A DNA stretch of 64,000 nt from Mycolicibacterium poriferae (GTDB taxonomy: Bacteria > Actinomycetota > Actinomycetes > Mycobacteriales > Mycobacteriaceae), in contig NZ_AP022570.1 of NCBI RefSeq assembly GCF_010728325.1, positions 5,270,001 through 5,334,000 of the forward strand. The letters are read 5' to 3'. Shown piece after piece: positions 40,004 to 55,569 of this stretch. The stretch's first letter is position 1. Each line of letters starts with the position of its first letter. Position numbers and translations under genes: made by a program. The notes under the pieces were generated by a model. It had not been told where the DNA came from, searched no databases, and saw nothing but the letters and a program-made list of their open reading frames with translations.

Positions 40004-40088
40004 GCGCAACTCACGTGATCTGACCGAGGGCCGACCGAAACGCCGGTAGCGACCCTCCGACGACTGGTCCGCAGCTAACATGTTCGAG

Positions 40089-41876
40089 GTGGGGAGGGTG
40101 TCGGCCGTTCGGGCCGCGATCACACGCGCGCAGAAGTGGCCGGGCATTGCCCAGCCGGCGCTGTGGGCGCGCACCGCCGGGTCCAGTTTCGTGTTCGGCG
40201 GCGTGCTGGTGGCGCTGATCACCGCGCTGACCCCGACCTCGTTCGATCACGCCGTCCTGCAGTACGCCAACGCCGCGGTGGCCATGTCGATCGGGATCGC
40301 GGTCCTGCTCACGGGGCGGCGCGTCACGCTGGTGCAATTTCATCTGCTGGTGGTCACGGCGATCCTGCAGATCACGCTCTCGGTCACGTTCGCGACCGGC
40401 GCTGCGGCGGTGTCCTTCGCGACGCTGTACGTGTTCGTCGGCTGCGCCGCGTTTTTCGTGGCGTGGCCCACCGCGGTGCTCTATCTGGGCCTCGCCATGC
40501 TGTGTTCGACCACTGCGCTGGCGGTGACCGGGTCCGTGCCGTGGTGGACGGGTCTCGTCACGGCCGCGACCACGGCCGCGGTCGGAGTGATCATCCTCGC
40601 CCTCGGCCAGGTGGTGGCGAAGGCAGAACTCGACGAGGTGACCGGTCTGCCCAACCGGCGCGGGTTCGAGCGGATCCTCAGCGCCGAGGTCAGCAGGGCG
40701 TCATGGGAGAAGACCGGGCCGGCTGTGGTTCTGATCTGCGTGGACGCACGCGCGGCGGTGCAGCAGGCGTTCGGCGACCGGGCCGCGGACGCGTTGATGC
40801 AGCAGCTGACGTCAACCTGGCTCGGCGTGCTGGGCCCCGGCCACGTGCTGGCGCGGCGCAGTGACGGTGAACTCGCGTTGATGCTGCCGGCGACCACCGA
40901 GCACGACGCCTTCGCCCTGACCCAGCGACTCCGGCAGGAAGCCACCAGAGAATTCTCGGCCGGGGTCAGCGCCTGGGCGGCCGGTGAATCCTCCACCCCG
41001 GTCCTCGAGCGCGCCGATGCGGCGCTTCGGCGCGCGCAATCCATCGGACGAAACCGCACGATGCTCGAGTCCTCCGAGCTGCCGCCGCTGGCCGTTCAGC
41101 TCAGCGACGCACTTGCCGCCGAAGACATCGGGGTCTGCTACCAGCCGGTGATGCGCCTCGATGACCCCGATGTCGTGATCGGGGTCGAGGCGCTGCTGCG
41201 GTGGTCGCCCGCGCTGGGGCCCGACCTGAACGCCGGTGAGGTGATCAGGGTCGCCGAGGACCACGATCTGATCGCAGCCCTCGATCAGTTCGTGCTGCGC
41301 CGGGCGTGCCTGGACGCCGGCTGGGTGCAGGGCCGATTCCCCGGCCTGCCACTGATGTTGAGCGTCAACGTGTCCGGCCTCGAACTGGTCAAGCAGGGCT
41401 ATGCCGCCCGGGTCGTGGACACGCTGCGCACCACCGGCTGGCCCGCCGACCAACTCGTGCTGGAGGTCACCGAGACGGTCCTCGACGTGGACCGGCCCTC
41501 GTCGATCAACGCACTGCACGAGCTCCGCCGCCACGGAATCCGTGTCGCCATCGACGACTTCGGCACCGGATACTCGTCGTTGAGCCGGCTACACACGCTG
41601 CCGACCGACCTCCTCAAACTCGACGGCTCTTTCGTTTCGTCGATCATCTCGCCGTCTGCTCCGCGCCTGCTGCAGGCGGTCGCCGGACTCGCCGATGCCC
41701 TTCATCTGCCTATCGTGGTCGAAGGTGTCGAGACCGCCCGCCAGGCAGCGGTCCTGCGCGACATGGGCTTCACGATGGCCCAGGGTTATCATTTCGGCCG
41801 TCCGCAGAGCCGGGAAGACGTGGCGGAGTCGATAAGACATCAAGCCACGACCTCCGGGCCGGCGCTCGGCGGCTGA
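40089..41876 (+). CDS. Membrane GGDEF-EAL protein, probable c-di-GMP phosphodiesterase
   Basis: The protein of about 595 residues has five to six N-terminal membrane helices (to about residue 180), a GGDEF-type domain whose signature is degenerate (RRSDGELALML instead of GGDEF), and a C-terminal EAL domain with GVEALLRW, NVSGLEL, VTETVL, AIDDFGTGYSSLSRL, LKLDGSF and VVEGVET, all needed for catalysis. It therefore probably hydrolyses c-di-GMP, and the GGDEF part may only bind GTP. TAACAT (40076-40081) lies 7 nt before the GTG used here; an ATG three codons earlier overlaps that box. It is not linked to the catabolic genes. Confidence 0.88.
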   Translation: MGRVSAVRAAITRAQKWPGIAQPALWARTAGSSFVFGGVLVALITALTPTSFDHAVLQYANAAVAMSIGIAVLLTGRRVTLVQFHLLVVTAILQITLSVTFATGAAAVSFATLYVFVGCAAFFVAWPTAVLYLGLAMLCSTTALAVTGSVPWWTGLVTAATTAAVGVIILALGQVVAKAELDEVTGLPNRRGFERILSAEVSRASWEKTGPAVVLICVDARAAVQQAFGDRAADALMQQLTSTWLGVLGPGHVLARRSDGELALMLPATTEHDAFALTQRLRQEATREFSAGVSAWAAGESSTPVLERADAALRRAQSIGRNRTMLESSELPPLAVQLSDALAAEDIGVCYQPVMRLDDPDVVIGVEALLRWSPALGPDLNAGEVIRVAEDHDLIAALDQFVLRRACLDAGWVQGRFPGLPLMLSVNVSGLELVKQGYAARVVDTLRTTGWPADQLVLEVTETVLDVDRPSSINALHELRRHGIRVAIDDFGTGYSSLSRLHTLPTDLLKLDGSFVSSIISPSAPRLLQAVAGLADALHLPIVVEGVETARQAAVLRDMGFTMAQGYHFGRPQSREDVAESIRHQATTSGPALGG

Positions 41877-44744: not shown

Positions 44745-45818
44745 CTACCACATCAGGCCGCGGATCATCTCGGCCGGCGGGATGTCCTCGAGCCCGATCA
44801 GGCCGGCCGGGGCGCGGCACACCCAGTCGATGGCGTTGACCGCTCGCGCGGCGGTGGACACACAGCCGGCGTCGGTGACATCGAGAGTCGGATGTGAAAG
44901 GTGGGTGTTGACTTCCACCCGCGGCTCCCCCTCGACCACCACCTTGTGCACGCCGAGCGCGCCCCCGGGCGGGTACGGCCATGACGGCGCGGCAGCGGGG
45001 GTCAGCCGGTTGACGTGCTCGACGGTGAGCACCGGAGCATCCGCCCGGACACCTTCCACGGCGAACCGCACCGCGGCGACCCCGCCCGCTTCGACCGTCG
45101 TCATCCTGCACGTGATGCGTTCGGTGGCATACCAGGCTTCGTATCGCTCGCGGACGTCGTCGAGTTCGACGTCGAGCTGCCGGGCGAGGTTTCGCACCAA
45201 TCCGCCGAACAGGGACGTGATCACGCCAGGTTGGAACGCCATGGGCACGTCGTCCTCGCAGGTACGGCCGAACCCCATCGCGGTCCCGGTGTACTCGTAG
45301 TCGTCGTAATTTCCGTAGTCGAAGATCTCCTGCACGGTCACCGACCGTGCGCGGGCGACCAGGCTCAGTGCCGAGTGCACGGCAGTGTCCGCGGAGTACC
45401 CGGGGTCGATTCCGTTGACGTACAGGGAGGCACCTCCGGCGGCACAGGCCTGCTCCAATGGCGTGCGCAACCAGTCGTCAGCCTGCCGGGGCACCACCAG
45501 CCACACCATCGAGGTCCCGACGACGTTGATGCCCGCCCTCAGGAAGGTCGACATCTCCTCGATTGCCTCGATCGGACGGGTCTCCCCGAGGGCCGTGTAG
45601 ACGACGCAGTCGGGCCGCAGCGCGATCAGCGCGTTGATGTCTGCGGTGGCGGTGATACCGGTCGGTTCCCCCAACCCGCACAGCTCGGCGGCGTCGCGCC
45701 CGACCTTGGCCGGGGTCGCTGCGTGTACGCCGACCAGCTCGAGGTCAGGGCGGCCGATGATGGCCCGCAGCGAATGGACACCGACATTGCCGGTGGAGAA
45801 CTGCACCACTCTGCGCAT
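44745..45818 (-). CDS. NAD(P)-dependent reductase of the diaminopimelate dehydrogenase-like family
   Basis: The 357-residue protein begins RRVVQFSTGNVGVHSLRAIIGRPDLELVGVH, a dihydrodipicolinate-reductase-like Rossmann fold with G-N-x-G, and has NVVGTSMVWLVVP, GIDPGYSADTAVHSALSLVARARSVTVQEIFDYGNY and a C-terminal domain of the 2,4-diaminopentanoate dehydrogenase type. Such proteins are frequent in mycobacteria, often with lipid or steroid genes, and their substrates are unknown. The gene is divergent from the TetR gene; an inverted repeat that I propose as its operator lies in between. A second family member closes the TetR-controlled operon region at 52450-53508. Confidence 0.82.
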   Translation of the reverse strand: MRRVVQFSTGNVGVHSLRAIIGRPDLELVGVHAATPAKVGRDAAELCGLGEPTGITATADINALIALRPDCVVYTALGETRPIEAIEEMSTFLRAGINVVGTSMVWLVVPRQADDWLRTPLEQACAAGGASLYVNGIDPGYSADTAVHSALSLVARARSVTVQEIFDYGNYDDYEYTGTAMGFGRTCEDDVPMAFQPGVITSLFGGLVRNLARQLDVELDDVRERYEAWYATERITCRMTTVEAGGVAAVRFAVEGVRADAPVLTVEHVNRLTPAAAPSWPYPPGGALGVHKVVVEGEPRVEVNTHLSHPTLDVTDAGCVSTAARAVNAIDWVCRAPAGLIGLEDIPPAEMIRGLMW

Positions 45819-45866
45819 TGACGGGCCTCCGTTCCGTCGAGGTGCTGCCCATTCAACGGCTGCACT

Positions 45867-45880
45867 TGACTCAAGTCAAT
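45867..45880. promoter_or_regulatory. TetR operator candidate, site 1 (TTGACT-CA-AGTCAA)
   Basis: A perfect 6-2-6 inverted repeat in the divergent region between the reductase and TetR genes. It matches site 2 (46551-46566) and site 3 (47321-47334) at nearly every arm position. Confidence 0.65.
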
Positions 45881-45915
45881 GACGATCGACTGCCCCGGCG
45901 GTGCAGCAGCGCGGC

Positions 45916-45927
45916 TATTGTTGTCGG
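45916..45927 (+). promoter_or_regulatory. -10 box TATTGT, leaderless tetR start
   Basis: TATTGT at 45916-45921 is followed by 6 nt and the ATG at 45928, fixing the start choice for the TetR gene. Confidence 0.55.
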
Positions 45928-46530
45928 ATGGCCGTGTCGGACAAGCCTTCAGCCCGAGAGACCAAGCGACTCCAGACCCGCGAGCGCCTGATGGGCGCTG
46001 CGGTGGCCGAATTCAAGAGGTCCGGCATCGCCGCCGCAGATGTGGGTGCGATCGTAGCTGCGGCCGGCGTCGCCCACGGGACCTTCTTCTTCCACTTCCC
46101 GACCAAGGAACACGTCCTGCTGGAACTGGAACGCCGCGAAGAGGAACGCATCGCCAAACAGCTCGCACGTTTCGCCGCCGACAACCACGACCTGGCGCAG
46201 ACGTTCGGTGAGGCCATCCGGTTGATCGTGGGCTTGGAGCGACGACTCGGCGGGATACTGTTCAAAGACTTTCTCGCCCTGCACTTCTCTCAGACACGCC
46301 CCCAGACCGACGGCGAGAGCCAACATCCCGTGATCGTCGAGGTCGCCCGCGCGATCGAGCGCGCCCAGACACTCGAAGGCGTCGACGGGGACGTCGATCC
46401 GTTCAACAGCGCCGTGTTCTTCCTGCTCGGACTGTATGCGCTGCTCACCACCACGCACAACTGGCCCGAACAGAGCGCCATGCTCGACGACTACCTGCTC
46501 AGGAGTCTGCGCGGCATCGGCGCAAAGTAG
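45928..46530 (+). CDS. TetR family transcriptional regulator
   Basis: The 200-residue protein has the TetR N-terminal helix-turn-helix (about residues 12-60): RETKRLQTRERLMGAAVAEFKRSGIAAADVGAIVAAAGVAHGTFFFHFPTKEHVLLELE, where GTFFFHFPTKE is the classical recognition-helix end. The C-terminal ligand domain is unremarkable. ATG 45928 lies right after a -10 box. It precedes the membrane-protein operon by 40 bp, and the repeats at 45867, 46551 and 47321 look like its operators. It probably represses its own gene, the divergent reductase and the NorQD-like operon, until a lipid-like ligand binds. Confidence 0.9.
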   Translation: MAVSDKPSARETKRLQTRERLMGAAVAEFKRSGIAAADVGAIVAAAGVAHGTFFFHFPTKEHVLLELERREEERIAKQLARFAADNHDLAQTFGEAIRLIVGLERRLGGILFKDFLALHFSQTRPQTDGESQHPVIVEVARAIERAQTLEGVDGDVDPFNSAVFFLLGLYALLTTTHNWPEQSAMLDDYLLRSLRGIGAK

Positions 46531-46534
46531 CCGA

Positions 46535-46570
46535 TTGACTACTCACTCTCGCTGACTATAGTCAGCTGCC
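46535..46570 (+). promoter_or_regulatory. Strong promoter with TetR operator site 2 over its -10 box
   Basis: -35 TTGACT (46535-46540), 16-bp spacer, -10 TATAGT (46557-46562), then 8 nt to the ATG. The -10 lies inside the perfect 16-bp palindrome GCTGACTATAGTCAGC (46551-46566), so a repressor there would block the polymerase. Confidence 0.75.
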
Positions 46571-47302
46571 ATGAACCTGCCCACAGTTCGCGGAGGTCGA
46601 CGCCGTGCCAACGATGCTGCGCGTCACTCCTCCGGCAGCGGCCTGGACGAACACCTCGAGGCCTCGCAGCGCGCGCAGCGCCAGGCGGACAAGTGGTTGA
46701 TCTCCGGCAGTCTGCTCATCGGGACCGCTGCGTTGGGGATCTTCGGGCTACCGCTGTTCCTGCGCGGAGTGTGGCTTCTGCGCAAAGCCCAGCGCGACGG
46801 GCTGACGGTGCGACCGATGCTGGTCACGCTCCTCGGCTATCTCGTCATCATCGACGCGGCCATCAACACGGTCGGCTGGGCGCTCGACCTCGTGGCCAAT
46901 CACACGTTACTGGCCCGAGTTCTGTTGAACGGCTGGGGAAACATGTTCGATGCCGGCTACTTCTGGCACTACAACGAACTGTGGATCGGTGGTGCCGCAG
47001 GCCCCGGAGAGAAGGCGATGGAGGTGGGGATGATACTCACCGTCTTCACGATGCGTATCGCGGCTGCCATCGGCTTCCTGCAGATGAAGCGATGGGGCCA
47101 CCAGTGGATGATCATCACCTGCTGGATGGGCGTGCTGATCTGGTGCCTGTACGTGTTCAACATGACCATGTACGCCGACGTCCGCTTCGCCGGCGTCGTG
47201 TTCCCCGTCATCGGCTGGTGGCTCTACGACATCTTCTACATCACCCCGTTCCTCGCCATCCCCTACCTGCATTCGGTCAACCGCGAGATCTTCTCCGACT
47301 GA
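46571..47302 (+). CDS. Polytopic membrane protein A of the NorQD-like operon
   Basis: The 243-residue protein has a polar N-terminus of about 40 residues and six to seven membrane helices. Conserved with its paralogue at 50027-50725 are [49 protein letters not shown] and [19 protein letters not shown]; four His and several Asp/Glu in or near helices could bind metal. I recognise no enzyme family with certainty; the FxxYNxxW pattern faintly recalls AveC-like spirocyclases. It starts 8 nt after a -10 box under the TetR operator. Its downstream partners include a NorQ/NorD-type chaperone pair, which suggests that it is a metal-containing membrane enzyme subunit. Confidence 0.8.
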   Translation: MNLPTVRGGRRRANDAARHSSGSGLDEHLEASQRAQRQADKWLISGSLLIGTAALGIFGLPLFLRGVWLLRKAQRDGLTVRPMLVTLLGYLVIIDAAINTVGWALDLVANHTLLARVLLNGWGNMFDAGYFWHYNELWIGGAAGPGEKAMEVGMILTVFTMRIAAAIGFLQMKRWGHQWMIITCWMGVLIWCLYVFNMTMYADVRFAGVVFPVIGWWLYDIFYITPFLAIPYLHSVNREIFSD

Positions 47303-47320
47303 TATCGATGACTCAACTCA

Positions 47321-47349
47321 TTGACTTTGGTCAGCAATCAAACTAGAAA
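47321..47349 (+). promoter_or_regulatory. Second promoter with TetR operator site 3
   Basis: TTGACT-TT-GGTCAG (47321-47334) repeats the operator pattern; its left arm is also a good -35 box, 17 bp before TAGAAA (47344-47349). It sits before the 34-residue gene and may boost the NorD/NorQ part of the operon. Confidence 0.6.
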
Positions 47350-47403
47350 AGGGTGCACGACGAGGGCTCGGGCGGGACGCGTCCACGCCAAGGAGGACTG
47401 ACG

Positions 47404-47508
47404 ATGGATTGGGTCTGGGAGATCCTGCGCTACGTAGCCGCGTGGGGCGGTACCGGTCTCGTCATCTGGTTCTGGTACTGGATGTTCTCCAACCTCGGCA
47501 CATTCTGA
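47404..47508 (+). CDS. 34-residue single-helix membrane protein
   Basis: The short frame starts at an ATG with a strong AAGGAGG 7 nt upstream and encodes a Trp/Phe-rich helix (MDWVWEILRYVAAWGG then TGLVIWFWYWMF) ending NLGTF. It follows membrane protein A and precedes the NorD-like gene by 18 bp. Size and hydrophobicity are like small accessory subunits of membrane oxidases. Expression is supported only by the ribosome-binding site and the conserved layout, because a second tiny gene sits next to membrane protein B. Confidence 0.7.
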   Translation: MDWVWEILRYVAAWGGTGLVIWFWYWMFSNLGTF

Positions 47509-47526
47509 AAGCCTCCTGCCGTCAAC

Positions 47527-49059
47527 ATGTCCGAGCTGACCGATGCCGCCGCCATGGCGATGGAGCGTAGCTGTGCCCTGACCGCCGTGGCGCTGAGCGG
47601 CGGCCGCCGCTCCGGTGTGAACCTGGTGACCGGACAACATCGCCGTTTCGGCGTCAGCGTGTCGCTCGACCTCGTCTACGTGCCCCATCCGCCGACGGTC
47701 CGGGACTGGACCCGAAGAACCATCACATGTGGTGTGGCGCTGCAGTGTTCGCCGTCGAAAGAGGCTGTCGCCGGATACCGGCTCAACGAGCTGTCCGCCC
47801 GGGAACTACGCGCCCTCACGCTCGTCGAAGCCGGTGTCGCACTGGGCTGGATCACCTCGACCTGGCCCGGGCTGCTCCGTGAGATCGAGCGGATGATTCC
47901 CGGCCTACAGCCTCTGCCCGCGGACATGGACGCTACCGCGATGTTCAACTGCGCGGTCGAGAGGGCACAGGCCGGACCGGTCCCCGACCCGGACCCGTTG
48001 CTCGGCAGACTTCCGCTGGCGTTGACATCGGCGCAGGGCCTCACCGACAAGATGCGGCGAACGTTCGGCCGACTGCCCTGGACCACCGCACAGAAGAGAC
48101 TCCCGCGGGCACACTCCGTGCCGGCGGGTGGTGACGGCGGGGTACGTAACCCGAACCTCCCACCGCCCAGCAGACCGCACGACAACGACCTGGACATCAC
48201 CCCCGACCACCGTCCCGGCATCCCCTATCCGGAATGGAATGCGTGGACCGAGCGCTTCATGCCCGACCATGTCGCGGTCCTGGAACTGCCGCGCACCGGC
48301 GGCACTCGTCCACCCGGGACCGTCACGCCCGACATCAGGCGATGGTTCGAGAAGCACACCCACCGTGCCATGCACAGCCACCTCGAGGACGGCTCCGACC
48401 TCGACGTCGACCAGTACGTCGCTCACTTCATCGACGTGACCACCGGCGAAGCGGTCGAACCGCGAATCTTCCGGGAGCTGCGACCGGCGAGCCGCGACGT
48501 CACCACCGCGCTCCTTCTCGACGGCAGCTCCTCTCTCGGGGTACACGGCGGCCGAATCTTCAAGCTGGAGCTGGCCTGCGCCGATGCTCTGTCGCGCGCG
48601 ATGACCCTGGCGCGCGAACGACACGGGATCTTCACCTTCACCGGCAACACCCGCCACCGTGTCGAAGTCAGCTGTCTCAAAAACTTCGCGGACCGACGTT
48701 TCGTCCCACCTGGCGAGCTCGGACTGTCGACCGGCGGATACACCCGGCTCGGCGCTCCACTGCGCCACCTCACGAGCAGACTGCTCGATCAGCCGTCCGA
48801 GCGGCGGCTGGTAATCGTGATCGGGGACGGCCTGATCTCCGACGAAGGCTACGAGGGCCGCTACGCTTGGGCCGACGCGGCGCATGCCGTCCAGGAGGCC
48901 CACGATGCGGGCGTCTCGATGTACTACGTCGGCGTCGGTCCCGTCACGGTCGATCCACTTCCCGAAGTCTTCGGACCGCGCCGTTCCCAACGTATTCGGC
49001 GAGTGGAGGACCTTCCCCGCGTGCTCGCGCACGTGCATCGGGAGTTGGTGTCGGTATGA
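47527..49059 (+). CDS. NorD-like protein with C-terminal von Willebrand A domain
   Basis: The 510-residue cytoplasmic protein has a helical N-terminal half and a VWA domain from about residue 322, with MIDAS residues Asp332-x-Ser334-x-Ser336 (LLLDGSSSLG), Thr in LSTGGYTRLGAPLRHL and Asp in VIVIGDGLISDEGY. This is the arrangement of NorD/CbbO proteins, which work with a MoxR-type AAA+ ATPase to insert metal or remodel an enzyme. Its stop overlaps the NorQ-like ATG by 4 bp. No denitrification genes are adjacent, so the client is probably one of the membrane proteins in this operon. Confidence 0.87.
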   Translation: MSELTDAAAMAMERSCALTAVALSGGRRSGVNLVTGQHRRFGVSVSLDLVYVPHPPTVRDWTRRTITCGVALQCSPSKEAVAGYRLNELSARELRALTLVEAGVALGWITSTWPGLLREIERMIPGLQPLPADMDATAMFNCAVERAQAGPVPDPDPLLGRLPLALTSAQGLTDKMRRTFGRLPWTTAQKRLPRAHSVPAGGDGGVRNPNLPPPSRPHDNDLDITPDHRPGIPYPEWNAWTERFMPDHVAVLELPRTGGTRPPGTVTPDIRRWFEKHTHRAMHSHLEDGSDLDVDQYVAHFIDVTTGEAVEPRIFRELRPASRDVTTALLLDGSSSLGVHGGRIFKLELACADALSRAMTLARERHGIFTFTGNTRHRVEVSCLKNFADRRFVPPGELGLSTGGYTRLGAPLRHLTSRLLDQPSERRLVIVIGDGLISDEGYEGRYAWADAAHAVQEAHDAGVSMYYVGVGPVTVDPLPEVFGPRRSQRIRRVEDLPRVLAHVHRELVSV

Positions 49060-49883
49060 CCACATACGAGCAGTTGCCCGAGGAGCAGATGACCGGTCGA
49101 TACCTGGCCAACGGTGACGAAGTCCAGCTGTTCGAACGCGCCTTCCAGCGCCGGCTGCCGGTGATGCTCACCGGTCCCACCGGGTGCGGCAAGACGCGAC
49201 TGGTCGAGCACATGGGGACGCAGCTGAGGCGGCCCGTGGTGACGATCAGCTGCCACGACGACCTGACGAGCGCTGATCTCGTCGGGCGGTTCATGGTGAC
49301 CGGCGGGGATGTGGCGTGGACCGACGGACCCTTGACCAGGGCGGTCAAAGCCGGCGCGATCTGCTACCTCGACGAGGTCGTCGAAGCCCGGCACGACTCT
49401 CTGGCTGTGCTGCATTCGCTCACCGACCACCGCCGTACCCTCTATCTGGACCGGGCCGACGAGGTGGTGGCGGCACCCGAGACCTTCATGCTGGTCTGTT
49501 CCTACAACCCGGCGTACCGCAGCTCACTCAAGGAACTCAAACCGTCGTTCCGCCAACGCTTCGTCACGCTACCGATGAGGTATCTGCCGGCAGACCAGGA
49601 GGCTGCGGTCGTCGCGGCCGAGACAGGAGTCGATGGGGCAACTGCCGATCGGTTGGTGCGGTGCGCCAACGCTATTCGCACCGCCGACGAAGCATTCCAT
49701 TTCGAGCCCCCGTCGACGCGGGTTCTCGTCACCGCGGCGCACATGATCGCAGCGGGTGCCGCGGAGTTCGATGCCGCCGAGGCGTGCATCCTGGCGCCGT
49801 TGTCGGGCGACGGTGCCGTCGCCGAGGGCCTTCGCGAGATCACCGCGGCCAGCCTCGCCGACGCCGCGAACACACCCCGCTAG
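49056..49883 (+). CDS. NorQ/CbbQ-like MoxR-type AAA+ ATPase
   Basis: The 275-residue protein has Walker A GPTGCGKT (residues 40-47), Walker B ICYLDEV (102-108), sensor-1 MLVCSYNP and arginine-finger region SFRQRFVTL, with the C-terminal helical lid. The sequence ISCHDDLTSADLVGRFMV is typical of NorQ/CbbQ. These hexameric ATPases form a complex with the VWA partner and activate metalloenzymes such as NO reductase or Rubisco. Here the pair lies between two paralogous membrane proteins, which suggests a new client. The ATG overlaps the NorD-like stop by 4 bp. Confidence 0.92.
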   Translation: MTTYEQLPEEQMTGRYLANGDEVQLFERAFQRRLPVMLTGPTGCGKTRLVEHMGTQLRRPVVTISCHDDLTSADLVGRFMVTGGDVAWTDGPLTRAVKAGAICYLDEVVEARHDSLAVLHSLTDHRRTLYLDRADEVVAAPETFMLVCSYNPAYRSSLKELKPSFRQRFVTLPMRYLPADQEAAVVAAETGVDGATADRLVRCANAIRTADEAFHFEPPSTRVLVTAAHMIAAGAAEFDAAEACILAPLSGDGAVAEGLREITAASLADAANTPR

Positions 49884-49898
49884 GGAGGAGAACGACAC

Positions 49899-50030
49899 AT
49901 GGTGGACCAGAAGGAGAGAAAGCGCAAGAAGGCGCTGATCATCCTGCAGGTCGTGATCTACGGATATCTGCTGACGATGTTCCTGATCCAGCTGTACATG
50001 TCCTTCGCCAGAGGATGGTGGGACTTGTGA
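49899..50030 (+). CDS. 43-residue single-helix membrane protein
   Basis: The frame encodes a basic N-terminus (MVDQKERKRKK) and one hydrophobic helix ending ARGWWDL, so it is a type II one-pass protein. GGGAGGAG lies 8 nt before the ATG. Its TGA overlaps the GTG of membrane protein B by 4 bp, a strong sign of coupled translation. It mirrors the 34-residue protein next to membrane protein A, giving two membrane-protein/small-protein sets around the chaperone genes. Confidence 0.78.
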   Translation: MVDQKERKRKKALIILQVVIYGYLLTMFLIQLYMSFARGWWDL

Positions 50031-50725
50031 AACCGGTGACCGCACCGCCTGTCCCGGCGGGCGGCGTCGAGCAGCATCACGAACAGTCCAGGCTGGCACA
50101 GCGCCGTGCCGACAAGTGGATGATCACCGGCGCGGCACTGATGGGAATGTGGGCGCCGGGTCTGATCGGCTTCCCGATCTTCATGCGCGGAGTGTGGCTG
50201 CAGCGCCAGGCGCTGCAGGCGGGACTGTCCGTGCGCCCCATGATCGTCACGTTGATCGGCTACCTGGTGCTGATCGACGGGATGCTGAACAGTCTGGGCT
50301 GGGCCCTGGATCTCGTCGCCAACCACACCCTGATCAACCGCGTCCTGATGGTGGGCTGGGGCAACATGTTCGATGCCGGCTACTTCTGGCACTACAACGA
50401 ACTGTGGGTCGGCGGAGCGGCGGGGCCCGGTGAGAAGTCGATGGTGTTCGGGATGATCGTCACGGTCTTCGCGATGCGCTGTGCGGCCGCGATCGGCTTC
50501 CTGCAGATGAAGCGGTGGGGTCACCAGTGGATGATCATCACCTGCTGGATGGGCGTGCTGATCTGGTGCATCTATGTGTTCAACATGACCATGTACGCCG
50601 ACGTCCGCTTCGCCGGCGTCGTGTTCCCCGTCATCGGCTGGTGGCTCTACGACATCTTCTACATCACGCCGTTCCTGGCAATCCCCTATCTGCACACGGT
50701 GAACCGCGAGATCTTCTCGGACTGA
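50027..50725 (+). CDS. Polytopic membrane protein B, paralogue of protein A
   Basis: The 232-residue protein is closely related to the one at 46571-47302 throughout the membrane part and almost identical over the last 80 residues, including [36 protein letters not shown] and [13 protein letters not shown]. The N-terminal 35 residues differ. A 92-bp stretch is identical in DNA between the two genes. Start is a GTG overlapping the 43-residue gene. Two paralogues in one operon suggest a hetero-oligomeric membrane complex. Function unknown; see protein A. Confidence 0.82.
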
Positions 50726-50747
50726 GCCTCATTCAAGGAGTACCTTT

Positions 50748-51194
50748 GTGACCACCACCCCCGAAACCGACGCCGATCCCAAGTCCGAGGACCTGCCGCC
50801 CGGGACCACGCCGTACTACGCGCGCATGCACCGCTACATCAAGCGCGCCGTGCTGGTGTGCTTGGTAGCCCTCGTCATCGAAGGTGCCTTCACGCTGCCG
50901 TTCATGGCCGTGTACTACGGCTACCCCACGCTGAGCCTGACCGAGATCTGCAGCGAGCTGCTCAAAGTGCGGTACTCCGACGACACCCTCGAATGCCAGG
51001 TCCCCTATCCGGCCTTCGGACCGCCCGAAGGCGCGGAGGGCAAGGACACCGCGCAGGACGAGTGGGGCATCCAGCCGGTTCCGAAATACCACCGCATCGG
51101 ATTTCGTGAGTTGGTTCGCATTCATGAAGAGCGCGAAGCGCGACAGACGGCGAACGAGCGCGAAGCGCGAGACGCCGCCGAGCAGGAGCCCTGA
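50748..51194 (+). CDS. One-helix protein with an extracytoplasmic two-cysteine segment
   Basis: The 148-residue protein has a charged N-terminus, one membrane helix (about residues 34-58, [24 protein letters not shown]), then a segment with two cysteines (LTEICSELL and [14 protein letters not shown]) and a charged coiled tail ([21 protein letters not shown]). AAGGAG lies 7 nt before the GTG. I recognise no family. It is placed between membrane protein B and the P450 gene, 3 bp from the latter, and is probably a subunit or anchor for the same complex. Confidence 0.75.
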
Positions 51195-51197
51195 GAC

Positions 51198-52436
51198 ATG
51201 GCGCAAACGGCCGCGCACCACGCGCAGAACTGGGATCTGCGACACGAGGACTTCAACGATCCGAGCGAGCCCGACCTACTGTACGACGTCTACGCGGTGA
51301 TGCGGGAACGCTGCCCGTTCGCCCACACCGACACCCCCTTCCTCAGCGACGTCCCCGGCGGCGCCTGGGTCGCGACGCGATACGCCGACTGCCTGCGGAT
51401 CGCCCAGGACTGGGAACACTTCTCCAGCAATCCGGCCGCCGGTTCGGCCGACCACGTCGTCGGCGATCTGGTGGTCATGGTGGACCCGCCGCGACAGCAA
51501 CAGCTGCGCAGGATCCTGAACCCGTACTTCTCCCCCGCGCGGATGAAGGCGCTCCGTCCCCAGATCGCCGCCGAAACCGACTCGCTCATCGACGGTTTCA
51601 TTACCGATGGGGTCGGCGATCTGGCAGACGTCGCCTGGCGTCAGCCGGGGATCGTGCTGTTCAAGTACCTGCTCGGGATACCCACCGAGGAGATCGGAGT
51701 CTGTTTCGAGCTGACCGACACCGCGCTCAACGGTACGGCGGAACAAGAACGGTTGGCGGCCTGGGCCGGCCTCTATCAACGTGTCGACGCGCTCGTCGCG
51801 ACGCGCTCCCGCGAGCCCGGGGGCGACGACATGATCGACGTACTGCTGCGCGGCGAGATCGACGGCGAGAAGCTCGCGCACGTCGATGTCGTCGGAAACG
51901 CGATGTTGCTCGTGCAAGCCGGACTCGAGACCACGGCCAACGCCATGTCTTTCGCCTTCCACCATCTGGCCACCCACCCCGGGGAGCGCGATCGGATGAT
52001 CGCCGAACCCGACCTGGCGCCCCGCGCGGTGGAGGAGATGATCCGCTACGCCGGTTCGATCCACGGCCTGCATCGAACCGTCGTCAAGGACGTCGAGGTC
52101 GACGGCCACACCTTCCGTCGCGGCGAGACGGTGGTGGTGAACTTCGCCGCCGCCAACCGCGACGAGAGCGTTTTTCCCGGAGCCGACCACTGCGTGCTCG
52201 ACCGTCGCGACAACCGGCACCTCGGATTCGGCGCGGGCGTACATCGGTGTCTGGGGTCCAACCTGGCACGCCTCGAGTTTCAGATCGGAGTGGAGCGGGT
52301 GTTGCACCGGATGCCCGACTTCGAACTGCGGCCCGGTGCCGAACCGGAGTTCCACGGCAACTCCATCACCCGTGGATACCGTTCAATTCCGGTCGTTTTC
52401 AGTCCACCACGACGTAATGTCGGCGGCGTCGAATAG
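51198..52436 (+). CDS. Cytochrome P450
   Basis: The 412-residue P450 has the I-helix AGLETTANA, the ExxR motif in EEMIRY, the PERF-like region and the heme loop FGAGVHRCLGSNLAR with Cys351 as ligand. It is a soluble bacterial class I P450 that hydroxylates or epoxidises an organic substrate with electrons from a ferredoxin; no ferredoxin is encoded nearby. The acid-alcohol pair position has Glu-Thr, which is normal for many mycobacterial CYPs. It lies 3 bp after the one-helix protein gene, so it is part of the NorQD-like operon. Confidence 0.95.
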   Translation: MAQTAAHHAQNWDLRHEDFNDPSEPDLLYDVYAVMRERCPFAHTDTPFLSDVPGGAWVATRYADCLRIAQDWEHFSSNPAAGSADHVVGDLVVMVDPPRQQQLRRILNPYFSPARMKALRPQIAAETDSLIDGFITDGVGDLADVAWRQPGIVLFKYLLGIPTEEIGVCFELTDTALNGTAEQERLAAWAGLYQRVDALVATRSREPGGDDMIDVLLRGEIDGEKLAHVDVVGNAMLLVQAGLETTANAMSFAFHHLATHPGERDRMIAEPDLAPRAVEEMIRYAGSIHGLHRTVVKDVEVDGHTFRRGETVVVNFAAANRDESVFPGADHCVLDRRDNRHLGFGAGVHRCLGSNLARLEFQIGVERVLHRMPDFELRPGAEPEFHGNSITRGYRSIPVVFSPPRRNVGGVE

Positions 52437-52449
52437 AGACGGGGAAACA

Positions 52450-53508
52450 ATGTCGGACAAGACCTACCGGGTGATCCAGTGGATGACCGGAGACGTCGGC
52501 CAGGCCGGTATCCGCCATTTCGCCGCTTGCCCGACGTTCGACCTCGTCGGTGTCCTGGTCCACAGCAAGGACAAGGTCGGCAAGGACGCCGGCGAGATCG
52601 CCGGCATCGAACCGATCGGCGTCATCGCCACCGACGACGTCGGCGCGGTAGTCGCCACTGACGCCGACTGCGTGTTCTACACCCCGATCATCATGGATGT
52701 AGCGACGGTGTGCCGGCTGCTTCGATCGGGCAAGAACGTCGTCACCACCGCCGGTTTCTTCCACCCCACCGAGGACTTCCGCGCCGCAGGCGACCAGATC
52801 CGCGCGGCGTGCACCGAAGGCGGCGCATCGTTTCATGGCGGCGGAATCCATCCCGGGTACGCGGGGGACGTCCTGCCGCTCACGCTCGCCCGGGTCATGA
52901 GCAGGATCGACACCATCCACCTCTACGAGGTGGTCGAAGTGCTCAAGGACGCCCCGCTGGACCACATCGACTGGATGGGGTTCGGCAAGGACAAAGACGC
53001 GTTTCTGAGCGAACCGACGATTCTCGGCCTCGGCCTGCCGTACTTCGCCCAGTCGATGCACATGCTGGCGGACGGACTCGGAGTCGCGATCGACGAAATC
53101 ACCGCGGCCGAGGTCGATGTCGCGGTGGCGGTCGAGGACATCGCGCACGACGAGGGCGCGATCGCCCGCGGAACGGTCGCCGCCCAGCGCCACCAGTGGA
53201 CCGCATGGGTGGACGGGCGGCCACTGATCGTGTTCCACGCGATCTACGTCACCGGTGGCCCCGACGTGCTGGAACCGGCCTGGGATTGGGGCGCCACCCG
53301 GTACCGGATCGTCATCGACGGGGACCCGCCCACCGAGCTGACGATGCAGGGGCTGAGACAGCCCGACGGCACCATGTCTCACCCCGGATACCCCTGGACC
53401 GCGATGGGCGCCATCAACGCCATTCCCGAGGTGTGTGACGCACCGGCCGGCTGGCTCACCCATTTCGACCTCGGCCTGGTCAAGCCGCGAGGGCTGGTGC
53501 GCAAGTGA
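52450..53508 (+). CDS. NAD(P)-dependent reductase of the diaminopimelate dehydrogenase-like family, second copy
   Basis: The 352-residue protein starts YRVIQWMTGDVGQAGIRHFAACPTFDLVGVLVHS, the same Rossmann type as the gene at 44745-45818, and has NVVTTAGFFHPTEDF, GGGIHPGYAGDVLPLTLARVMSRIDTIHLYEVV and a related C-terminal domain. It presumably reduces a carbonyl or imine, or oxidises an alcohol, on a lipid substrate. A GGGGA stretch lies 5 nt before the ATG. It overlaps the ERG2-like gene by 4 bp, so these two are tightly coupled. Confidence 0.83.
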   Translation: MSDKTYRVIQWMTGDVGQAGIRHFAACPTFDLVGVLVHSKDKVGKDAGEIAGIEPIGVIATDDVGAVVATDADCVFYTPIIMDVATVCRLLRSGKNVVTTAGFFHPTEDFRAAGDQIRAACTEGGASFHGGGIHPGYAGDVLPLTLARVMSRIDTIHLYEVVEVLKDAPLDHIDWMGFGKDKDAFLSEPTILGLGLPYFAQSMHMLADGLGVAIDEITAAEVDVAVAVEDIAHDEGAIARGTVAAQRHQWTAWVDGRPLIVFHAIYVTGGPDVLEPAWDWGATRYRIVIDGDPPTELTMQGLRQPDGTMSHPGYPWTAMGAINAIPEVCDAPAGWLTHFDLGLVKPRGLVRK

Positions 53509-54074
53509 GTCACCGCTTCGACCCCGATGTTCTGCAGCAGATGGTCGAACACGTCGCCGGCCTGCAGCTCGACAGCCGCGATTTGATTTCCCGCACCGTC
53601 GAGTTGCTCGCCGAGGAGTATCCCGACCTGATCGACCCGACGCCGGGCCGCTGGGTGGGCAGCAAGGCCGGCGGAGTCCTCGGCAAGGTGCGGTTCCTGT
53701 ACTTCAGCACCCGCGAGTACTTGGTGATATTCGGTTCTCCGACTGGTACACAAGGCTTTTCGGGCCGCTACAAGCACGTGGACATCCACAAGTTCCTGCT
53801 GACCGGCCAGATCGACTCCTACGACCTCGAGTCCGAGGACATCGAGCCCCTGCCTGCGTTGCTGCCCGGCGGACACACCTGCCTGCAGCGCGGACACGCG
53901 CGCGGTCTGACCATCCACCCCGGTTCCTGGCACCTCGAGTACGGCCGGGGCGCCGTCGTCACCACGCTGCCGTTCGCGATGGTAGACACGTTGGCGGTAT
54001 CCCTGGAATTCGAATCGGTGCGTCGCTCGACAATCGAGTTCAGCCGGCTCATCGGGCGGCGCCGAAGGAGGTAG
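53505..54074 (+). CDS. ERG2/sigma-1 receptor-like protein (C-8 sterol isomerase family)
   Basis: The 189-residue protein matches the ERG2/sigma-1 family in order: FDPDVLQQMVEHVAGLQLDSRDL and LLAEEYPDLI at the start, FSTREYLVIFGSPTGTQGFSGRYK, LLPGGHTCLQRGHARG and WHLEYGRGAVVTTLPFAMVDTL. Glu145 in LEYGRG corresponds to the ligand-binding Glu of sigma-1 (Glu172). Eukaryotic ERG2 moves the sterol 8(9) double bond to 7(8). No N-terminal membrane helix is present, so this form is soluble or peripheral. It suggests that the operon handles a sterol- or terpenoid-like molecule. GTG start overlaps the reductase stop by 4 bp. Confidence 0.85.
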   Translation: MSHRFDPDVLQQMVEHVAGLQLDSRDLISRTVELLAEEYPDLIDPTPGRWVGSKAGGVLGKVRFLYFSTREYLVIFGSPTGTQGFSGRYKHVDIHKFLLTGQIDSYDLESEDIEPLPALLPGGHTCLQRGHARGLTIHPGSWHLEYGRGAVVTTLPFAMVDTLAVSLEFESVRRSTIEFSRLIGRRRRR

Positions 54075-54077
54075 CTC

Positions 54078-54740
54078 ATGCGGGTCGTCATCGCCGGTGG
54101 ACACGGCAAGATCGCGGTGCTCACCGAGAGACTCCTGGTCGACCGCGGCGACTCGGTCGCCGGCTTCATCCGCAACCCCGACCATGCCGCCGACCTGGAG
54201 GCGGCCGGTGCCGAACCGATCGTGGTGGACCTGGAGAGCAGCAGCGCCGACGAGGTCGCCGGACACCTGACCGGCGCCGATGCCGTCATCTTCGCCGCCG
54301 GCGCGGGGCCGGGCAGTGGAGCGGCGCGCAAGCAGACCGTTGACCACGACGCGGCGGTCCTGCTGGCCGATGCCGCCGAAGCCGCCGGGGTGCGCCGCTA
54401 TGTGATGGTCTCCGCGATGGCCGCCGACTCCGCCGCGCCGGACGACGCCGGTGACGAGGTGTTCGTCACCTACCTGCGGGCGAAGGGCGCCGCCGACGAC
54501 AACATTCGCGCGCGGGACGGGCTGCAGTCCACCATCGTGCGACCCGGACGTCTCACCGACGACCCAGCCGCGGGCAAGGTTGCCGCGGGAACAGACACCG
54601 GGTACGGCAGCATCCCGCGCGCCGACGTCGCCGCGGTGCTGGTCGCCGTGCTCGACGCCCCCCAGACCGCCGGCCTGACATTCGACGTCATCTCCGGGGA
54701 CACCGACATCACTGAAGCGGTCGCCGGGCTGGGTGACTAG
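54078..54740 (+). CDS. NAD(P)-binding atypical SDR (NmrA/SDR-a5-like)
   Basis: The 220-residue protein has the Rossmann start MRVVIAGGHGKIAVLTERLLVDRGDSVAGFIRNPDH, VVDLESSS, ADAVIFAAGAGPGSG, YVMVSAMAAD and the late TIVRPGRLTDDP and IPRADVAAVLVAVLD motifs of atypical SDRs. The classical YxxxK is not evident, so it may be a sensor, an isomerase or a reductase. A GGAGG site lies 6 nt before the ATG. It is the last gene of the operon starting at 46571, before a convergent junction. Confidence 0.87.
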   Translation: MRVVIAGGHGKIAVLTERLLVDRGDSVAGFIRNPDHAADLEAAGAEPIVVDLESSSADEVAGHLTGADAVIFAAGAGPGSGAARKQTVDHDAAVLLADAAEAAGVRRYVMVSAMAADSAAPDDAGDEVFVTYLRAKGAADDNIRARDGLQSTIVRPGRLTDDPAAGKVAAGTDTGYGSIPRADVAAVLVAVLDAPQTAGLTFDVISGDTDITEAVAGLGD

Positions 54741-54793: not shown

Positions 54794-54845
54794 TCGTCAG
54801 CCTGATTCGTCAGGGAAAGTCGTCAGGCGGGATCGTCAGGTGGAG
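54794..54845. repeat. 13-bp direct repeat, four units with TCGTCAG core
   Basis: TCGTCAG occurs at 54794, 54807, 54820 and 54833, exactly 13 bp apart. The last unit contains the TGA stop of the minus-strand SRPBCC gene. The other 6 bases of each unit vary. Confidence 0.85.
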
Positions 54846-55276
54846 GGGGCGAAGACCGCCTTGAAGCGGTTCAACGACTCCTGGATGTCACCCTTGAGCG
54901 CCCCGGCCACCACCATCCCGATCGGACCGAACAACGCCGGACCACCGAGGTGCACGTCGAACGTCACCGTCGAGCCCATGTCGCTCGGCTTGATCTTGCC
55001 CATCAGCTTGACCTTGACGCCGCCCTTACCGTCACCGTTGAGCGTCATCGACTCCGGCGGCCGGTAGTGCACCACGGTCCAGCTCACCCGGTTCGGCATG
55101 CCCTTGACCTCGACGATCGAGTCCAGTTGGGTGCCCTTCTCGATGGTCTCGGGCAGTTTCGAGCGCCACACCCGGTGGATGGACAGCCACTCCTTGTAAC
55201 GGGACAGGTCCGACGCGCTCTCCCACGCCTGCTCGGGAGGCATGGGCACGTCGACGGAAACCGACAGTTTTGCCAT
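54836..55276 (-). CDS. SRPBCC-fold protein, Rv0910-like toxin
   Basis: The 146-residue protein reads closely like Rv0910: AKLSVSVDVPMPPEQAWESASDLSRYKEWLSIHRVWRSKLPE, VEVKGMPNRVSWTVVHYRPPESMTLNGDGKGGVKVKL and FDVHLGGPALFGPIGMVVAGALKGDIQESL. It has the START-like hydrophobic-pocket fold. In M. tuberculosis Rv0910 was reported as the toxin partner of Rv0909. It begins 14 bp after the antitoxin-like gene in the same direction, keeping the known order. Confidence 0.9.
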   Translation of the reverse strand: MAKLSVSVDVPMPPEQAWESASDLSRYKEWLSIHRVWRSKLPETIEKGTQLDSIVEVKGMPNRVSWTVVHYRPPESMTLNGDGKGGVKVKLMGKIKPSDMGSTVTFDVHLGGPALFGPIGMVVAGALKGDIQESLNRFKAVFAPST

Positions 55277-55290
55277 GCCAGGAATTGTGC

Positions 55291-55569
55291 CTAGGACGTC
55301 GGCGGGGCCGTCGGGGGGTCCTGCTTGCGGGGCGCAGCCGGTGGCGGCGAAGCAGGCGGCTCCTGACCGGAGTGCTGGCCAGGCGGTACCTGACCCTGCG
55401 CGGCGTTGTCGGCGACCGCCTTCTTGGCCGCGTCCTGCACCTTGTTCACCTGCGAGGCGTACTTGCCCTGCGTTCTCTTGTCGACCAGATCGCCGGCCTT
55501 GTCGATCGCGCTGTCCACTTTGTCGGAGTTCTTGGCGAGAAGATCCTTCGCCTTGTCCAGAAATCCCAT
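55291..55569 (-). CDS. Rv0909-like antitoxin
   Basis: The 92-residue protein begins MGFLDKAKDLLAKNSDKVDSAIDKAGDLVDKRTQGKYASQVNKVQDAAKK, the hallmark of the MT0933-type antitoxin family, followed by a Pro/Gln-rich tail (PPASPPPAAPRKQDPP) longer than in Rv0909. The N-terminal part should form amphipathic helices that bind the SRPBCC partner. It lies 9 bp downstream of ctpE, so the pair is probably in the ctpE transcription unit. Confidence 0.9.
   Translation of the reverse strand: MGFLDKAKDLLAKNSDKVDSAIDKAGDLVDKRTQGKYASQVNKVQDAAKKAVADNAAQGQVPPGQHSGQEPPASPPPAAPRKQDPPTAPPTS

Follow-up and report, generated by a model that had tools for sequence, protein, structure and literature searches.

What does a NorQ/NorD-type chaperone pair act on when no nitric oxide reductase or Rubisco is encoded beside it? 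The question is raised by an operon in a 64,000-nucleotide stretch of the 5.93-Mb genome of Mycolicibacterium poriferae (contig NZ_AP022570.1, positions 5,270,001 to 5,334,000), hereafter called the window, in which such a pair is encoded among genes for two polytopic membrane proteins, MP1 and MP2. To our knowledge, chaperones that combine a MoxR AAA+ ATPase with a VWA protein have few known clients, and the Rubisco activases CbbQ/CbbO are MoxR/VWA pairs that act without metal insertion. A preliminary description of the locus had proposed a metal-dependent lipid enzyme matured by the pair. The reading that we favor, with confidence evenly divided for and against it, is that this TetR-controlled operon encodes an EXPERA-like membrane complex, activated by the chaperone pair, to which redox and ERG2-like partners are optionally added. 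The pair is compact and widely kept, and its membrane client would be open to direct testing.

The ATPase is a 275-amino-acid NorQ/CbbQ-type MoxR protein (49056..49883, + strand) that matched AAA_5 (PF07728; E 6.8e-36, 123.8 bits with a cut-off of 22) and CbbQ_C (PF08406; E 4.1e-22, 78.6 bits with a cut-off of 20.6). Its top NCBIfam match, gas-vesicle GvpN, scored 82.6 bits, far under the cut-off of 266.8. The adjoining NorD-like protein (47527..49059, +; 510 amino acids) carries a C-terminal VWA domain (PF00092; E 1.1e-5, 26.1 bits with a cut-off of 23.8). For comparison we used the best 80 of 320 stretches encoding an MP2 relative from a scan of species genomes (the 80 loci), in which a gene was counted as present at E <= 1e-3. 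These are close relatives and give an uneven picture of the genus; genus-wide counts come from an even draw of 178 Mycobacterium genomes. In 85 of 85 loci (the 80 plus L141 to L144 and L193), the metal ion-dependent adhesion site (MIDAS) residues D332, S334, S336, T406 and D434 of the VWA protein were identical, T406 and D434 being assigned from sequence position, and the Walker A Lys/Thr and Walker B Asp/Glu of NorQ were present. A MoxR AAA+ protein with CbbQ_C next to a C-terminal-VWA protein with a MIDAS is the arrangement of NorQ/NorD and CbbQ/CbbO. Unlike those systems, the operon holds no NorB, NorC or Rubisco gene, as had been noted before, and its client would be EXPERA-like; the VWA protein has 510 amino acids, whereas NorD is about 69 to 70 kDa.

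The pair is embedded in a conserved set of membrane protein genes, all on the + strand: MP1 (46571..47302; 243 amino acids), the one-helix peptide sp1 (47404..47508; 34 amino acids), the chaperone genes, the one-helix peptide sp2 (49899..50030; 43 amino acids), MP2 (50027..50725; 232 amino acids) and the one-helix protein TM148 (50748..51194; 148 amino acids). Previously described as a paralogous pair, MP1 and MP2 proved 76% identical, and both contain KRWGHQW and the other motif quoted at that time. No Pfam match was found for MP1, MP2, sp1 or TM148 at E <= 1, and the sole match of sp2 was nonsignificant (E 0.24); NCBIfam gave none for MP1, MP2 or TM148 at E <= 0.1. Because sp1 and sp2 have matches in 80 of 80 relatives, these short reading frames next to the MP genes are not chance ones. 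The order MP1, sp1, VWA, NorQ, sp2, MP2, TM148 was kept in all 80 loci. Across the genus, MP occurred in 96 of the 178 genomes and a NorQ orthologue (full-length, at least 75% identity) in 92, all within those 96 (Fisher p 1.6e-46, uncorrected for phylogeny); one of the 92, G966, carries an in-frame stop. The four genomes with MP but without a full NorQ are G945 (a single remote-type match), G031 (an 83% NorQ fragment only), G005 (an 84% complete assembly with a partial MP) and G1027 (a weak MP match).

Reduced versions of the set were also found. A single-MP version, sp1-VWA-NorQ-sp2-MP-TM148, was present in three genomes of other genera of the same family (L142, L143, L144), two of them with an adjoining TetR match, and a similar arrangement was present at one Mycobacterium locus (L193). 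In another class of the phylum, a remote MP homologue that is 38% identical (L141) has VWA (35%) and NorQ (55%) immediately downstream. For the paralogue sets sp1-sp2-MP-TM148 (L145, L189, L190, L191, L192), the fetched stretches yielded no match to VWA or NorQ. A still simpler arrangement pairs MP with an 82-amino-acid protein and was seen in L187, L188 and, on a plasmid of Mycobacterium branderi, L149; the small protein aligned weakly with the TM148 helix (E 7e-4 to 0.008 in five loci). These conserved gene sets lead us to infer a membrane complex composed of MP, sp1, sp2 and TM148, with the VWA/NorQ pair as its chaperone. A polytopic membrane client and small membrane proteins in the cluster would both resemble the NorQ/NorD system of cytochrome c nitric oxide reductase. 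The copper membrane monooxygenases pMMO and AMO likewise combine polytopic with one-helix subunits; unlike them, MP1 and MP2 match no Pfam family. Near the L141 MP-VWA-NorQ genes, we also observed a further polytopic protein with a D/H/W-rich loop (L141:5365-6219, +) and no significant Pfam match.

What kind of proteins, then, are MP1 and MP2? An AlphaFold2 model of MP2 (pLDDT 82.5, pTM 0.79) was compared with known structures. Among the matches listed (structural alignment of Foldseek's 428 best chains), EBP and the sigma-2 receptor outranked all other PDB entries. Both belong to the EXPERA superfamily (the human sterol delta8-delta7 isomerase EBP, TMEM97/sigma-2 receptor, TM6SF; PF05241), which has a four-helix core and which the MP subunits probably resemble in fold, MP1 by way of its paralogue. 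EXPERA scores were weak by both Foldseek and HHalign; MP1 and MP2 themselves did not match the PF05241 profile, and the remote homologue in L141 reached 19.2 bits, under the curated cut-off of 25.7. MP2 D116, invariant in 40 of 40 sequences, would fall on the conserved acidic residue of the superfamily (EBP D108, TMEM97 D56) if a +8 register, set by residue count only, holds. According to an excerpt of one report (PMC4263179), EBP catalysis requires H76, E80, E122, T125, N193 and W196. By residue count, MP has D84, N88 and F216 at the H76, E80 and W196 positions and G130 at that of E122, or perhaps E136 given a longer loop, so on this count the EBP catalytic set is not kept. MP further differs from EXPERA proteins in having extra N-terminal helices and in being encoded together with one-helix subunits and an AAA+/VWA pair. 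In excerpts of the open-licence literature among the matches listed, there was no account of the operon, nor of any EXPERA protein associated with an AAA+/VWA pair. If the EXPERA reading is true, the sterol isomerase and the sigma-2 receptor have bacterial relatives here, which some species encode in the same operon as a sigma-1/ERG2 homologue and which would offer a handle on the role of these folds outside eukaryotic sterol synthesis.

Several side observations touch these proteins. Bacterial EXPERA proteins occur in Actinomycetota: L152:1450-2202 (-) keeps the EBP motifs H-x3-E, D-x-RY, E and N-x2-W; L156:1126-1896 (+), from Mycobacterium, looks EBP-like with a Pfam match under the cut-off; and L150:1267-1842 (+) and L151:1300-1839 (+) look TMEM97-like. 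The 3' ends of MP1 and MP2 look as if they underwent concerted evolution: third-position identity over the last 60 codons was 0.775 within a genome versus 0.738 for MP2 between genomes, and farther upstream, at codons -180 to -120, it was 0.562 versus 0.677. In G028, the two MP copies (C62:207411-208170 and 211731-212487) gave split, overlapping matches at the same place, which could be an assembly effect of near-identical 3' ends.

Next, we considered the enzymes encoded downstream, all on the + strand: a cytochrome P450 (51198..52436; PF00067, E 6.1e-28), a DapB/2,4-diaminopentanoate-dehydrogenase-like (DAPDH-like) oxidoreductase (52450..53508; PF19328, DAP_DH_C, E 5.1e-10, and PF01113), an ERG2/sigma-1-receptor-like protein (53505..54074) and an NAD(P)-binding protein (54078..54740; PF13460, NAD_binding_10, E 2.8e-42). 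The top PDB sequence match of the P450 is CYP125MRCA, a name that indicates an ancestral CYP125. The 189-amino-acid ERG2-like protein is a clear homologue of its family (PF04622, E 2.5e-32, 112.4 bits with a cut-off of 21; sigma-1 receptor PDB chain, 2.1e-16). The first three had been put forward as working with the membrane proteins on a cyclic lipid. A neighborhood survey bore out the MP/NorQ/VWA core in all 80 loci but placed the partners in subsets: orthologues of the P450 (at least 60% identity) were found in 40 loci, of the DAPDH-like protein (at least 65%) in 38, of the ERG2-like protein (at least 65%) in 27 and of the NAD(P)-binding protein (at least 60%) in 20. Because of these counts, we regard the P450, DAPDH-like and ERG2-like proteins as optional and not as one fixed pathway; the NAD(P)-binding protein is likewise optional. 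Among the 76 loci whose downstream DNA extends to 8 kb or more, only 4 have contiguous P450-DAPDH-ERG2 genes as in the window; the remaining four of the 80 fall short of 8 kb.

In the genus draw, a PF04622 gene was present in 41 of 178 genomes, 37 of which also have MP, and in 27 of those 37 it lies within 12 kb of NorQ. Two very strong ERG2/sigma-1 matches within the genus were G1003:C1:1978842-1979396 (E 2.9e-65), in a genome without an MP match, and G928:C1:658091-658516 (E 6.6e-54), not near NorQ; these two genes are possibly a second ERG2 lineage. DAPDH-like genes number 11 in the M. poriferae genome, and two of them flank the operon core, each less than 2 kb from an MP gene; the second (44745-45818, -) is the divergent neighbor of the TetR gene and lies 0.75 kb from MP1. 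Two DAPDH-like matches each also stand beside paralogue loci L189, L190 (one partial, at the edge) and L192, whose flanks look alike. Neighbors of the paralogue loci include acyl-CoA ligases, short-chain dehydrogenases, a class III CoA transferase, luciferase-like oxidoreductases and P450s, and upstream in the window lie acyl-CoA ligases, a Rieske oxygenase and an FMO-like protein. Taken with the ERG2-like protein and the P450 match, these neighbors suggest a setting in which isoprenoid or steroid-like compounds are degraded or modified.

Control of the operon would rest with a TetR-type regulator (45901..46530, +; start codon uncertain, TetR-family NCBIfam matches under their cut-offs), whose gene ends 40 bp before MP1. 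A perfect 16-bp palindrome, GCTGACTATAGTCAGC (46551..46566), lies directly before MP1 as a putative TetR operator and was the single window match at three or fewer mismatches, versus 0.04 expected. The same half-sites recur in TTGACTCAAGTCAA (45866..45879), a putative autoregulatory operator upstream of the TetR gene, and in TGACTTTGGTCAGC (47322..47335), an operator-like site in the 101-bp gap between MP1 and sp1, which holds the second promoter. Exact matches of TGACTWTRGTCAGC in the genome were limited to two places, both at the operon locus. Near the MP1 start (250 bp before to 40 bp after), every one of the 80 loci has TGAC-N3..5-GTCA, and 22 of them have it ahead of sp1; the loci, 1.30 Mb in total, contain 234 such motifs. 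Like palindromes stand 2.7 to 3.5 kb before MP in L142 to L144 and L193; from 4.5 kb before to 1.5 kb after MP, none was found in L141, L145, L187 to L190 or L192. This distribution suggests that the TetR switch is specific to the VWA/NorQ-bearing operon. A TetR homologue was present in all 80 loci, with varying position and number. Of 12 loci inspected, 7 (L040, L041, L042, L054, L058, L066, L092) have a TetR-like frame between MP1 and sp1, and some of these carry a TetR match ahead of MP1 as well.

How might the products work together? Excerpts of two reports (PMC13036017; PMC9976466) describe Paracoccus NorQ/NorD as indispensable for inserting FeB into nitric oxide reductase, with the VWA MIDAS proposed to bind acidic client residues, a NorD finger entering the NorQ pore and ATP hydrolysis opening the client for FeB insertion. 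On our reading, the operon would yield a multisubunit membrane complex (MP1/MP2 plus three one-helix subunits) together with its own chaperone. The MIDAS of the VWA protein would be its docking site on the complex, and the NorQ ring, by hydrolyzing ATP, would remodel the complex for assembly or cofactor uptake and hence activity. Within the membrane, the MP subunits would probably either bind or convert a flat, hydrophobic lipid of isoprenoid or steroid-like type, and the P450, DAPDH-like, ERG2-like and NAD(P)-binding enzymes would join in subsets of species, acting on the same or a related substrate. Whether a metal enters the complex is a separate matter, to which we give slightly less than an even chance. 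A stronger version, in which the pair inserts metal into MP1/MP2 as metal-dependent membrane enzymes (for example, an oxygenase) with conserved His/Asp/Glu ligands, has the Paracoccus precedent (PMC13036017; PMC9976466) and the intact MIDAS and ATPase residues of all 85 loci in its favor. In an alignment of 40 MP sequences, four remote homologues included, D84, N88, D95, D116, E136 and K137 were invariant and H100 was His in 37, and D84, D95, D116, E136 and H100 could make a carboxylate-rich site. However, the proposed ligand motif is weakened: H122, E125 and H166 were conserved in 36, 35 and 34 sequences, with Q at 125 or 166 in a few closer members, and were replaced in the four remote homologues (H122 by D/N, E125 by A/R/S, H166 by L), including L141, which retains its own VWA/NorQ. 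Moreover, EBP and the sigma-2 receptor are not known to be metalloenzymes; a match to a known non-metal family had been named beforehand as telling against the metal proposal, and these EXPERA folds partly supply one. Because the class includes CbbQ/CbbO, which activate Rubisco without metal insertion, the pair alone does not imply it. We therefore consider metal-dependent MP enzymes of this kind rather unlikely. Of the original proposal, the tie between the pair and the membrane complex and a likely lipid/isoprenoid setting stand; its metal-ligand part does not hold up as well. Less probable again is that the pair loads metal into an EXPERA-fold complex, which would make it the first member of the sterol-isomerase/sigma-2-receptor superfamily to depend on a metal, perhaps as an oxidative enzyme; in some species it would act from one operon with a sigma-1-receptor/ERG2 homologue and a CYP125-like P450, bringing both sigma-receptor folds into one bacterial isoprenoid pathway.

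The fold assignment itself could be misleading. MP may be an unrelated six-helix membrane protein whose EXPERA likeness is a chance similarity of helical bundles, and the weak Foldseek and HHalign scores, like the missing Pfam matches of the window proteins, would fit this. Two methods nevertheless agree on the superfamily, a Pfam profile on the remote homologue and structural alignment of MP2, and the two EXPERA structures top the matches listed; we find chance resemblance doubtful. That the pair serves the P450 or the ERG2-like protein, the membrane proteins being mere anchors or transporters, is very improbable. The gene neighborhood in the window, and the 27 genomes with ERG2 near NorQ, would suit a P450 or ERG2-like client; yet, in the fetched stretches and at the identity thresholds given above, 40 of the 80 loci lack a P450 orthologue and 53 an ERG2 orthologue while all keep VWA and NorQ, and no P450 or ERG2 match was found in the single-MP modules L142 to L144 and L193.

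In layout, the earlier count of ten tightly spaced + strand genes was accurate: sp1, VWA, NorQ, sp2, MP2, TM148, P450, DAPDH-like, ERG2-like and NAD(P)-binding follow one another with gaps of -4 to +22 bp, and MP1, ahead of the 101-bp gap, is an eleventh gene within 46571-54740. Close to the operon are genes for a GGDEF/EAL protein (40080-41876), a Polyketide_cyc2 protein (54836-55276) and an MT0933-like antitoxin (55291-55569).

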